From Candidatus Gastranaerophilales bacterium (lineage in GTDB: Bacteria > Cyanobacteriota > Vampirovibrionia > Gastranaerophilales > Gastranaerophilaceae), in NCBI GenBank assembly GCA_905236205.1, contig CAJOPF010000123.1, positions 1 to 33,103 on the forward strand: a stretch of DNA of 33,103 bases, read 5' to 3'. The notes below the pieces were generated by a model that saw only the letters and a program-made list of their open reading frames with translations, ran no database searches and was not told the origin of the DNA. Position 1 is the first letter of the stretch. The number at the start of each line of letters is the position of its first letter. This document shows, in pieces, positions 26,591 to 33,103 of the stretch. A program made the position numbers and the translations under genes.

Positions 26591-27013
26591 CTATCCCTCG
26601 TAACCTGATTCTTCGGATGTCGCAGCAACAAATGTTTTTTGACTGTTAGCTATAGCTATTGCCTGTTTCCATGTCGCACGCAAATCAATCAAATGTCTCA
26701 ATACTTCGTCAATTTTTGACTCATCTTTTTTAATATTTGCCTGAACAAGTGTATTATAAAAATATTGATAAAGGGCTTGTATTCTTACAGCAAAATCACC
26801 GCCGTTTTCAAGGTCTACGGTATTTATAAATTCCAAAAGGATGTTTTCACAACCAATTATGTTGTTATGAATTTCAGGAATATTTTTTTGCGACATGGCA
26901 ATTTTCGCTTTGTTTAAAAATTGTATCGCTCCGTCATACAGCAGAATTAGTATCTTCTCAGGAGAAGCTGTTTCTACCTCATTTTTTTGATATTGCTGTA
27001 AATATTGATTCAT
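26591..27013 (-). CDS. fliS: Flagellin export chaperone FliS
   Basis: This 140-residue chaperone binds the flagellin C-terminus and prevents early polymerisation in the cytoplasm. It begins in the family manner (NQYLQQYQKNEVETASPEKILILLYDGAIQFL, broken here as conserved Tyr-rich start, then the SPE-KILILLYDGA helix). The remainder is a four-helix bundle, with ATWKQAIAIA late in the protein. An AGAGG ribosome site precedes the ATG. It sits between a FlaG-like gene and a FliT-like gene, in the usual order apart from the missing fliD. Flagellin itself is not in the window. Confidence 0.94.
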   Translation of the reverse strand: MNQYLQQYQKNEVETASPEKILILLYDGAIQFLNKAKIAMSQKNIPEIHNNIIGCENILLEFINTVDLENGGDFAVRIQALYQYFYNTLVQANIKKDESKIDEVLRHLIDLRATWKQAIAIANSQKTFVAATSEESGYEG

Positions 27014-27027
27014 TAAACTAACCTCTT

Positions 27028-27495
27028 TTATATTGTTTTATTTACGAGTATACCCGAATTATAATCCAACTTGTTTATCATTTCAACAAAATCGTTTACA
27101 TTTATGCTTTCAAGAATCTTTTTTGTAACTTTATTATACAATTCAACTTTTTCTGTTTTGTTATTAAAATAAAGAACAACATTTTGAGGGTCTTTGATAG
27201 CTGTAATTTTAAGTTCTTTGGCTTTTTTACCCGTTATTTTTTCGTCTTTGTCTACTATATCCTTTTTTTCTTCGTCTTCCTCGTTTTCGTCGTATCCGTC
27301 CTTAAAATCTTGATTTCGTCTGTTTTTTTCTTCTTTTTCTTCATTATTGATTTTTTTATTTAAAGCTCGGTCAATTTTTCCAACAACTTTTTCATTACCG
27401 ATGTTAATTCCATGTTCGGTGCTTAGTGCCGCCTGTGCAGATGTAATATCTTTTGGCATTCCTATGGAAGCCATTGAAAAACCGTCTACGCTCAT
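27028..27495 (-). CDS. FlaG-like flagellar protein
   Basis: This 155-residue protein has three parts: a Ser/Ala-rich start (about 1-45), a very highly charged, low-complexity middle (about 48-90, mostly Glu, Lys, Asp and Asn), and a C-terminal domain (about 95-155) with VVLYFNNKTEKVELYN and KKILESINVNDFVEMINKL. That C-terminal pattern resembles FlaG, in which a short beta segment is followed by 'I..IP..E......L' and 'G.L.'. It lies immediately before fliS, the usual position of flaG (flaG-fliD-fliS). An AAAGGA ribosome site precedes the ATG. The charged insert is not typical of FlaG. The call depends strongly on position. Confidence 0.55.
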   Translation of the reverse strand: MSVDGFSMASIGMPKDITSAQAALSTEHGINIGNEKVVGKIDRALNKKINNEEKEEKNRRNQDFKDGYDENEEDEEKKDIVDKDEKITGKKAKELKITAIKDPQNVVLYFNNKTEKVELYNKVTKKILESINVNDFVEMINKLDYNSGILVNKTI

Positions 27496-27543
27496 TTTGT
27501 TATCCTTTGTTACATTCTTTTATTTTCTATTGAATATGCTATT

Positions 27544-27572
27544 ATTATATTATATAATTCCTGTTATATAAA
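27544..27572 (-). promoter_or_regulatory. Candidate promoter of the FlaG-like - fliS operon
   Basis: On the minus strand TTTATA (27572-27567) and TATAAT (27549-27544) are separated by 17 bases; a second TATAAT overlaps at 27554-27549. The same bases 27567-27572 read TATAAA on the plus strand, six bases before the divergent gene's ATG, so both genes may share this element. The region is very AT-rich. Confidence 0.35.
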
Positions 27573-27578
27573 TACTGA

Positions 27579-28328
27579 ATGGAGAGTATTTTGAAGAAAA
27601 ATCTGTTAAACAATTTCATATTAAAAATAAAAGAATTTCCATTGTGGATTAAGCAGGTAATCTTTTTCTACATGTGGCAAGATTTGAAACACGTTATTTC
27701 AGATGACTTTATTTTCCAAGAAGAAAATGATTTGCTGCATATATACGTTCCTGAATTATCTTATGTGGGTAAAACAGAACTTGCGGAAAGAACAAAGGGC
27801 TTTGACCAAAATATTTATACATTTTTGGAAAGCGCAGAAGACGGAATGTCTATTATGGAGTGTGCTTTAAACCATTTTTGGACATTGGAAGAAACTTGTA
27901 AATATTTCTTAGCTGCAGTTGATGCCGATTTAATAAAGGCTCCTGTTCCTGTGAAAATTATTGCCATGTCTGGGTTTATGTCAGGAAGATTTAGAACAGG
28001 TGAATATTATAAGAGAGTTGGTAAAATCAATGTTGACCAACTTGAAATAACAATTAGAAAACAAAAGGAACTGGCTGCACAAGGTATTCAGAAGAAAATA
28101 GCTGAATTGATGATAGAACTTGGTTTTATCACTCAAAAGGATACGTCATCGTTAATGGTAATAAAGGAAGAAGCTAAAAAGAGATTTATTTTGGATTCTT
28201 CAATAATTCCTGACGGAGTTACAGGGAACGACAGCAAATATATCAATGAAATTAACGAATTGAAAAAACAAAATATGGTTTTAAAAGCAAAATTAGCTAA
28301 GTTGTTATCAATGTTTAAAAAGTCGTAG
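27579..28328 (+). CDS. Protein with two MshEN/GspE-N-type motifs
   Basis: This 249-residue cytoplasmic protein has no membrane segment. The N-terminal half (about 1-135) is not recognised. Residues 139-162 (RTGEYYKRVGKINVDQLEITIRKQ, given here by its key positions R139, G141, G148, L155, Q162) and 172-196 (KIAELMIELGFITQKD...) are two tandem copies of the MshEN-type pattern 'RLG..L...G.I....L..AL..Q', known in pilus/secretion ATPases as a cyclic-di-GMP-binding unit. A coiled coil ends the protein (about 224-249). There is no ATPase domain. It is divergent from the FlaG-like - fliS operon. ATG 27579 lacks a ribosome site; TTG 27591 with GGAGAG upstream is an alternative start. Confidence 0.6.
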   Translation: MESILKKNLLNNFILKIKEFPLWIKQVIFFYMWQDLKHVISDDFIFQEENDLLHIYVPELSYVGKTELAERTKGFDQNIYTFLESAEDGMSIMECALNHFWTLEETCKYFLAAVDADLIKAPVPVKIIAMSGFMSGRFRTGEYYKRVGKINVDQLEITIRKQKELAAQGIQKKIAELMIELGFITQKDTSSLMVIKEEAKKRFILDSSIIPDGVTGNDSKYINEINELKKQNMVLKAKLAKLLSMFKKS

Positions 28329-28332
28329 TATT

Positions 28333-29265
28333 ATGTATCCTGACAGTTATATTCCGCAAAGGTTAGTAAAACATTTTAGAGATGAGTTAACAGTACAAGA
28401 ACATTTAGGTTTTGTTGTACTTTTTGACAAAGAGTTTGGAGAGACTTTTGGTTATCCTTTCTTTTTGCGTTCTTGTGCAAAGTCTTTGCAGGGTGCGTTA
28501 ATAATTGATGAAGATTTAGATTTTACGGTAGAAGAAATTGCCTTGTGTTGCGCTTCGCATGCCGGTGAAAGCTGCCATATTGAAATTGCGCAGAAATTAT
28601 TGAAAAAAGTTGGCATTTCGGAATCTGATTTACAATGTGGTATTCATGAACCTCTTTCTAAGCGGGCAAGAGAAAACTTGATTAAAAATAATGAAAAGCC
28701 TACCGTTCTTCACAATAATTGTGTTGGCAAGCATATTATGATGCTGGCATTATGTAAAAAATACGGTTGGGATATGCAAAATTATTGTGATTTGGAACAT
28801 CCTGTGCAACAGCTTATAAAAGAAAAAATATACGATTTATGCGAAGTTGTTGAAGATTATCCGATAACAAAAGACGGATGTGGAGTACCTATTTTTTCAA
28901 TGCCGTTGAAAAGCATGTTAAGGGGATATTTGAATTTGTTTTTATCTCCAAAATACGAAAGAATAAAAAGAGCATTTTTGGAATATTCTTATATAATTGG
29001 CGGTGAAGACAGATTAGATACAAAAATAATGTTGAAATCAAAAAATTTAATAGCAAAAGTTGGTGCTGACGGACTTATTATTATTGTAAATCTTGATGCT
29101 GCTGATGGTTTGGTTATTAAGCTTTTGGACGGTGATGCAAAAGCTCGTGAAATTTCTGCGTTGAGTTTAATTAAAAAATTAAGTTGGGCTAATATACCAT
29201 TTGAACAAGAAATTAAAACTCTAAACGGAGAAGTTGTCGGTTTGATGAAATTTGTTATGGTTTAA
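28333..29265 (+). CDS. L-asparaginase II family protein
   Basis: This 310-residue protein belongs to the thermolabile, Rhizobium-type L-asparaginase II family, which is unrelated to the E. coli AnsA/AnsB enzymes and hydrolyses asparagine to aspartate and ammonia. Diagnostic motifs are RSCAKSLQ (46-53), CASHAGE (73-79), HNNCVGKH (127-134) and DGCGVPIFSMP (181-191). Length fits the family. It starts four bases after the MshEN-motif gene, so the two are probably co-transcribed, although no functional link is obvious. There is no signal peptide, so it should be cytoplasmic. Its stop overlaps the stop of the convergent amidase by four bases. Confidence 0.9.
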   Translation: MYPDSYIPQRLVKHFRDELTVQEHLGFVVLFDKEFGETFGYPFFLRSCAKSLQGALIIDEDLDFTVEEIALCCASHAGESCHIEIAQKLLKKVGISESDLQCGIHEPLSKRARENLIKNNEKPTVLHNNCVGKHIMMLALCKKYGWDMQNYCDLEHPVQQLIKEKIYDLCEVVEDYPITKDGCGVPIFSMPLKSMLRGYLNLFLSPKYERIKRAFLEYSYIIGGEDRLDTKIMLKSKNLIAKVGADGLIIIVNLDAADGLVIKLLDGDAKAREISALSLIKKLSWANIPFEQEIKTLNGEVVGLMKFVMV

Positions 29266-31801: not shown

Positions 31802-33103
31802 TTATAATATTTGTTCTCTTAACATATATCCAAAAACGGAACCATTATTAACTAAAAAAGTTAAAATATCAATAATTGTATTTTTTAATTTTGTATCAGT
31901 CTTTATTTGTTGCTTATTTAGTGCATAATAATTTCTTACAATATTTTCAATATAATATATAGTATTAGATTCTATCTCAGAATAGATATTTTGTGTTACT
32001 AATTGATGTAATATTTTAATACCATCCTCAATATAATTAGACGCAATACCATTAAATACTCTTGCAATGGAATATAGTGTTTCAGAATATTTTCCAATAT
32101 CATTTGCTATATTGTAATAAAATTCTATATTTTCTTTTTTTAGAGAATGCCAAGATTTTGTATTACCATAATTCATTATATATCCTGCCAGAAGATAGTT
32201 TTCTATAATTTCTTTTGGCACATATCTTGAAGTGTTAACAATATTTTTTATCTTTTCATATAAAAGCATCCAAATATACCAAAATTTTTCATATTCTTTT
32301 TCTTCATCTTGCACAACAGATAAATCCAATAAAAATTCTGAAAAATCTTTCTTTAAGTGTTCTTTCAATAAAATTGGTTCAATAAATTTGTCAATTTCAT
32401 CCAATGGAAGTTTTAATAAATAGTATGCCAATTTACTCGAGAATTGGCTAATAACTTCTCTGTAATTTGTTTCATTATAATCAAAATCTTTGTCAAAAAT
32501 ATTTGTAAATTTTTGAATGTTCTCTAAGCAGAATTCTTTGTGTTCATTGCAACTAGAACCATTTGGAAGAATTTGAAAACCAACACATAAACCCTCATAA
32601 TCAAGCAAAGATAAATCAATATCTTTATATGTAATTTCTTTTTTTAATATTTTTTCAATTTTAATAAAGAATCTTTTATATACTTTATCAATTTCTTTTA
32701 AATTATTATTATATTTTAATTTCCAAGCTTTTTGGCAGAACTTTTCATATTCTGGCTTAAAATTTAAGTATGCAAGCCACACATCGTTTGCAATATCAAA
32801 ATTAGTATTCCACAATTTTGCTAAACATTTAATGGCATATTTTCTAATATCTTTCCAACTGAATAATGCAAAAATTAGTAAAATCTCAACAATTTGAGTA
32901 TCATTTGGATATATTTCAATAATATGATTTAGCGTTTCTATTGCTGGCTGTACTCCATCTGAATATTGAAAATTATAATTTAAATTTATCGGCATTCTTG
33001 CGTAGTCTAATAATACATTTTTACATATTTCTAATTCAGATTTTGTTAGTGCTTGGGTATACTTTTCTAGTAAAACAGCAGACACATAGGCGGGAACTGC
33101 ATG
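31802..33103 (-). CDS. Large helical-repeat protein, C-terminal part (5' end outside window)
   Basis: At least 433 codons are open to the window edge. A GTG at 33085 could start the frame, but six in-frame codons without a stop continue upstream and no ribosome site precedes the GTG, so the gene is most likely cut by the window. The visible protein is almost entirely alpha-helical, rich in Lys, Asn, Ile, Tyr and Glu, in paired helices like TPR/HEAT repeats, and ends LVNNGSVFGYMLREQIL. No catalytic motif is present. It is even more AT-rich than its neighbours. C-terminal helical repeats of this style occur in large NTPase sensors of phage-defence systems, but the diagnostic NTPase part is not here and the function is unknown. 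Confidence 0.75.
   Translation of the reverse strand, partial: HAVPAYVSAVLLEKYTQALTKSELEICKNVLLDYARMPINLNYNFQYSDGVQPAIETLNHIIEIYPNDTQIVEILLIFALFSWKDIRKYAIKCLAKLWNTNFDIANDVWLAYLNFKPEYEKFCQKAWKLKYNNNLKEIDKVYKRFFIKIEKILKKEITYKDIDLSLLDYEGLCVGFQILPNGSSCNEHKEFCLENIQKFTNIFDKDFDYNETNYREVISQFSSKLAYYLLKLPLDEIDKFIEPILLKEHLKKDFSEFLLDLSVVQDEEKEYEKFWYIWMLLYEKIKNIVNTSRYVPKEIIENYLLAGYIMNYGNTKSWHSLKKENIEFYYNIANDIGKYSETLYSIARVFNGIASNYIEDGIKILHQLVTQNIYSEIESNTIYYIENIVRNYYALNKQQIKTDTKLKNTIIDILTFLVNNGSVFGYMLREQIL

Follow-up and report, generated by a model that had tools for sequence, protein, structure and literature searches.

The window (the whole stretch of DNA analyzed, 33,103 nucleotides) contains an open frame at 27579..28328 on the plus strand, the coding sequence of a predicted stand-alone MshEN_N-type protein of 249 amino acids. 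An asparaginase II gene (28333..29265, plus strand; PF06089, E 1.1e-73) begins 4 nt downstream. On the minus strand, in divergent orientation, lie FliS (26591–27013; PF02561, E 1.1e-37) and an unassigned gene for a 155-amino-acid protein with no Pfam match (27028–27495), which we label FlaG-like as a working assumption. The earlier note described the gene as divergent from flagellar chaperones; this is borne out for FliS, whereas the FliT-like gene gave an E value of 0.0059 only, below the cut-off. The window also encodes a 427-amino-acid protein (31802–33085, minus strand) with no Pfam match at E ≤ 0.01.

Layout and distribution of the protein

All features given below are on the plus strand. 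The protein starts with an N-terminal helical pair (residues 9–39; 27603..27695), made of AF2-predicted helices 9–19 and 22–39, in which P21, W23, and K25 are near-invariant in the alignment of relatives. It is followed by an acidic winged-helix-like domain (residues 48–134; 27720..27980; AF2 helices 77–87, 92–98, and 103–115). The four-helix MshEN_N-like domain (residues 137–199; 27987..28175) was delimited by family profiles and the predicted structure. According to residue counts and the consensus score, its motif 1 (residues 139–162; 27993..28064) is well conserved across the family, and motif 2 (residues 173–196; 28095..28166) is uniformly degenerate, with K196 replacing the glutamine. 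The motif positions define a spacer of 10 residues (28065..28094). At the C terminus, AF2 predicts a long helix (residues 218–247; 28230..28319); the earlier note had placed a coiled coil here, of which the helix stands and the coiled coil is only probable. This helix is absent from 10 of the 49 relatives, one of which (L052) ends at a contig edge. As the note had stated, no ATPase domain was found in the protein by the Pfam and NCBI-type family profile scans, and its front part was given a family name by none of the profile libraries scanned.

Homologues were detected in 49 of 59 genomes (58 related ones and the own genome, which is counted), and judged from these sequences the gene family spans one bacterial order. 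A search of the genome contigs for related loci returned one near relative only. One further locus, L033, shares a contig with the locus of G001; it was excluded from the 49-row tables and included in the 41 neighborhood loci. L033 comes from sheep ileum, and the organism of the window may likewise be a gut-dwelling member of the Gastranaerophilales.

Homology and predicted fold of the MshEN_N-type domain

The Pfam model PF05157, with which the earlier note had proposed to search, gave no match to the protein at E ≤ 10, and it is absent from the first 25 of the 38 families listed for the 49 relatives. Because PF05157 spans the stretch behind the motifs in PilB of the same genome, it chiefly probes the half of the domain without the motifs; it was dropped as a membership test on both grounds. 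The apt model is NF053729, which describes an MshE-related c-di-GMP motif over 53 positions. The window protein scored 15 bits (E 0.016), short of the curated cut-off of 38 bits. The same model matched 44 of the 49 aligned relatives at E ≤ 0.1 (best 8.5e-16), and eight of ten relatives scanned singly gave E ≤ 0.001, all below the cut-off. Two relatives passed it: G013, and G007 with its neighbors in frame.

Profile–profile comparison was carried out with 30 MshEN_N domains from these genomes, which lie in frames mostly of 670–780 amino acids that are putative PilB-type ATPases by their length and by the own-genome copy. The family aligned with them in hhalign at E 1.8e-10 and a probability of 96.9; R139 pairs with the residue that opens the motif, and the linker carries an insertion. 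With the domain only, the E value was 8.9e-13, against 0.075–0.5 for six control pairings. A search of PDB sequences with the family profile retrieved PilF (2.2e-8), PilB (4.8e-6), and MshE (5htl, 0.022); with the window protein as a single sequence, it returned one chance row only.

The earlier note had read two repeats matching the MshEN consensus, with typical spacing, from the one sequence. When 24-mers were scored against the 11 positions of the published consensus, motif 1 fitted at 6 and motif 2 at 3. The motif of the single sequence is therefore not above chance, since 2975 of 20,000 shuffles of the protein reached a best score of at least 6. Family profiles, hhalign, and the structure do support an MshEN_N-like helical repeat pair. 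Read from one sequence, the repeats were a good guess and no more; the evidence for the domain, as assembled from sequences, comes from the relatives and not from the window sequence alone. The spacing is not the typical one: 10 residues separate the motifs in 28 of the 49 relatives and 11 in 18 (10 or 11 in 46), as compared with 5 in MshE in the accessible part of PMC5013675.

The full-length model has a mean pLDDT of 87.9. Whole-protein Foldseek gave no useful row (best E 2.7), and the domain was therefore folded alone (residues 124–205, mean pLDDT 89.7). The top Foldseek rows for this model were two MshE chains with c-di-GMP (probability 0.95 and 0.97), with E values above 1 throughout, for the whole protein and the domain alike. 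Among 88 chains aligned with VIA-align, c-di-GMP-bound MshE gave Z 8.0 (1.8 Å over 58 residues) and c-di-GMP-bound PilF GSPII-B Z 7.4, followed by the first unrelated chain at 4.3 and PilF GSPII-A at 3.6. Fumarase, aspartase, and cyclin rows were taken as common helical arrangements. The model has the four-helix MshEN_N fold, and its residues 137–199 superpose on residues 7–66 of MshE with the register unchanged. A fold unlike MshEN, which the note had named as grounds for rejection, is thus not what is predicted. As small helical bundles match easily, the case rests on sequence and structure agreeing in a single register, and on this basis we regard an MshEN_N-type domain at residues 137–199, in fold and homology, as close to certain.

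Other MshEN proteins were encountered in these genomes. The own genome encodes a 459-amino-acid MshEN protein (L001:1306-2685, contig C2) whose GspE-like ATPase part looks reduced, and most relatives likewise have PF05157-matching frames of about this length. G058, a 4.3-Mb genome of the same class, has 41 NF053729 matches (e.g., C9:716326-717048), several of them in frames of 400–480 amino acids that contain at least two copies in tandem. Other families of the class have stand-alone MshEN_N proteins of ~68–72 amino acids (L200, L201, L202, L203, and L206) that consist of the two motifs and little else.

Guanine half-sites and the candidate ligand

In the MshE structure, the accessible part of PMC5013675 places the first guanine among R9, G11, L25, L29, L39, and Q32; the second site was taken as R38, G40, L10, L54, L58, and Q61, by the symmetry described there. 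In the counts that follow, which depend on the alignment, conservative changes were scored as kept: R, K, or L was accepted at the first position, and F or any aliphatic residue at the leucines. The first site of the window protein is complete (R139, G141, L155, I159, I174, and Q162), and all six positions are kept in 39 of 49 members and at least five in 48. The second site is complete in none of the 49 members and most often retains two positions (25/49). In the window protein, T140, A175, T189, and K196 (four of the six) depart from known binders, and K173 and M193 are conservative. The position of Q61 is lysine in 47 of the 49 members, a uniformity that suggests a retained role over simple decay.

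The comparison domains differ in this respect. Both sites are fully kept in seven DUF4388-type relatives except at R38 (0/7). In the 30 ATPase-type domains, the second site is likewise kept apart from R38 (0/30). Their first site is kept only if serine is allowed at Q32 (Q or S in 28/30), and motif 1 mostly ends in serine. The changed R38 is therefore not a mark of the family, as it is common among the MshEN_N domains compared; by alignment, the family is marked by the changed G40, L10, L54, and Q61. Compared with MshE of Vibrio cholerae (PDB ID: 5HTL) and PilF GSPII-B (9GLG), the window protein shares the four-helix bundle in register and the first-site positions, but it has the longer spacer (10 residues, not 5), has lost the second guanine site, and is without a PF05157 match and an ATPase. 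PilF GSPII-A (9G1W) likewise combines one good and one degenerate motif, though it belongs to an ATPase and its structural similarity is low (Z only 3.6).

The earlier note had described a c-di-GMP-binding MshEN unit without an ATPase, to be abandoned upon loss of the nucleotide-contacting residues. The MshEN_N domain outside an ATPase holds, and that loss is found for one half only, the first guanine site being kept. Since the second is lost, c-di-GMP binding is doubtful, and we put binding by the window protein at slightly under an even chance. One intact half-site might confer weak binding, binding between two chains, or none. A change from R to K at the first motif position is compatible with tight binding, according to the accessible part of PMC11731258.

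c-di-GMP can probably be made, because GGDEF domains occur in 59 of 59 genomes (in the own genome, GGEEF was readable in two of eight domains). Enzymes of the Hypr type are recognized by the residue at the aspartate position of GxxGD. As to 3',3'-cGAMP as the ligand, no such enzyme was seen, and the aspartate was present in 21 of 21 readable motifs of 30 GGDEF loci (from 32 matches listed; nine loci gave no readable motif).

Gene neighborhood, relatives, and proposed role

The constant partner of the gene is asparaginase II. In 35 of 41 loci it is the next gene downstream, on the same strand, at gaps of −59 to 49 nt (≤8 nt in 31 of the 35). Adding the listed positions in G000, G005, G010, G046, G050, G055, and G056 to the 35 loci brings adjacency to 42 of 49 genomes. 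Of the seven genomes without adjacency, six have no asparaginase II gene, and in G053 the locus is at a contig end. The asparaginase genes carry CxGKH in 34 of 35 cases and DGCxxP in all 35, which we take to be the active-site motifs. The case for this partnership rests on adjacency because co-occurrence is not significant (both genes in 43 of 59 genomes, one alone in 6 and 8, neither in 2; p 0.61), and the link is not obligatory, as either gene occurs alone. Among the eight genomes with asparaginase II only, L126 and L130 have it ~75–180 nt from a flagellar cluster, with the window gene missing in between.

A c-di-GMP-controlled switch for motility or adhesion, as the earlier note had envisaged, would fit the divergent FliS-containing cluster, which is found near the gene in 12 of 41 loci. 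However, FliS and FliG occur in 37 and 38 of the 59 genomes, and the window gene is retained in 14 of the 19 that lack both (35 of the other 40). The FliS association is not significant (Fisher p 0.15), so that a flagellar link by co-occurrence was rejected, and in other lineages VKOR/DsbA and QueH genes occupy the same upstream position. The flagellar neighbors are a local feature; because the constant partner is the asparaginase gene and not the flagellar genes, such a switch is not the likeliest job of the protein, and we consider it very improbable. The same divergent arrangement could be read as that of a ligand-controlled winged-helix transcription factor acting on the intergenic region 27496–27578, and MarR, DosR, and MntR did appear over residues 65–127 in the structure comparison. 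These rows reach only Z ~2.5 to 5, and the sequence charge (domain pI 4.4, recognition helix −2, family mean pI 5.1) indicates no basic DNA-reading surface. The acidity argues for protein contact over DNA, and a role as a transcription factor is improbable.

The search for relatives outside the order covered 386 genomes of the phylum and 22 chosen genomes. The nearest are proteins of ~310–350 amino acids with DUF4388, which we take to be the PATAN domain, in front and MshEN_N behind; DUF4388 was above the Pfam cut-off in four of six scanned. Their MshEN_N part aligns with that of the window family at E 2.2e-14 in hhalign, and their middle region with the window front domain at E 1.3e-4, with a probability of only 54%, which makes homology of the winged-helix-like region no more than suggestive. 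Pfam detects no DUF4388 in the window protein and one among the 49 relatives, at E 0.013; the N terminus compares with the DUF4388 part at E 0.39 in hhalign. Four of these proteins (L195–L198) share the domain order, the 10-residue spacer, and a motif 1 start of F(R/K)xGEY, but they retain DUF4388 and the second site save its first position, and their neighbor is a mutS-like gene, not asparaginase. Adjacency to the mutS-like gene was seen for L195, L223, L224, L226, and L228, in five of six neighborhoods read by eye. In Synechocystis, PilB1, the pilus motor, is a binding partner of PATAN-CheY proteins, as described in the accessible parts of PMC9090330 and PMC7690835; by this analogy, a tie to pili may be no less natural than one to flagella.

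Here, we tentatively propose that the protein is a stand-alone signaling adaptor with one intact half-site that still senses c-di-GMP, a statement that as a whole we hold somewhat less likely than its opposite. The computed basis is the homology, the predicted fold, the half-site pattern, and the linkage to the asparaginase II gene. In this adaptor, an acidic interaction domain of the winged-helix-like kind would be followed by a single four-helix MshEN_N domain and, in most members, by a coiled coil at the C terminus; the protein would be related to the DUF4388-containing MshEN_N proteins but lack their DUF4388 part. It may sense c-di-GMP, or a close guanine nucleotide, via the single intact guanine site and relay the signal through contact with other proteins, without hydrolyzing ATP or binding DNA; co-expression with asparaginase II would be the best lead on the controlled process. 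A serious competitor, to which we give rather more than one chance in three, is that the MshEN_N fold was retained and nucleotide binding lost, leaving a protein-interaction module only, its role served by K196 and the LKEE signature. The loss of the second guanine site with its uniformly replaced glutamine fits this, as do the precedents of PilF GSPII-A and of XpsE with eight changes, for which the accessible parts of PMC11731258 and PMC5013675, respectively, report no c-di-GMP binding. On the other hand, a pure scaffold need not keep the first guanine site at all six positions, as most members do, and the lysine could still reach a phosphate. A variant of the proposed adaptor, which we consider unlikely, has symmetric c-di-GMP clamped between two chains, one half-site each, so that binding would make or reshape a dimer coupled to the asparaginase operon. 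If true, a one-chain two-motif pocket would have been turned into a two-chain pocket.

The bare fact of an MshEN domain outside secretion ATPases is not new, as such domains are already known. In Escherichia coli NfrB, according to the accessible part of PMC8669469, the domain lies in a glycosyltransferase, but there it is fully conserved and binds c-di-GMP. A literature search, with subscription journals mostly outside its reach, found no account of the present MshEN_N family. The unusual feature of the present family is that, across a whole order, one nucleotide half-site is fixed and the other uniformly changed. The family offers a clean natural test of whether MshEN can work with half a site, and it hints that c-di-GMP and asparagine use may be connected.
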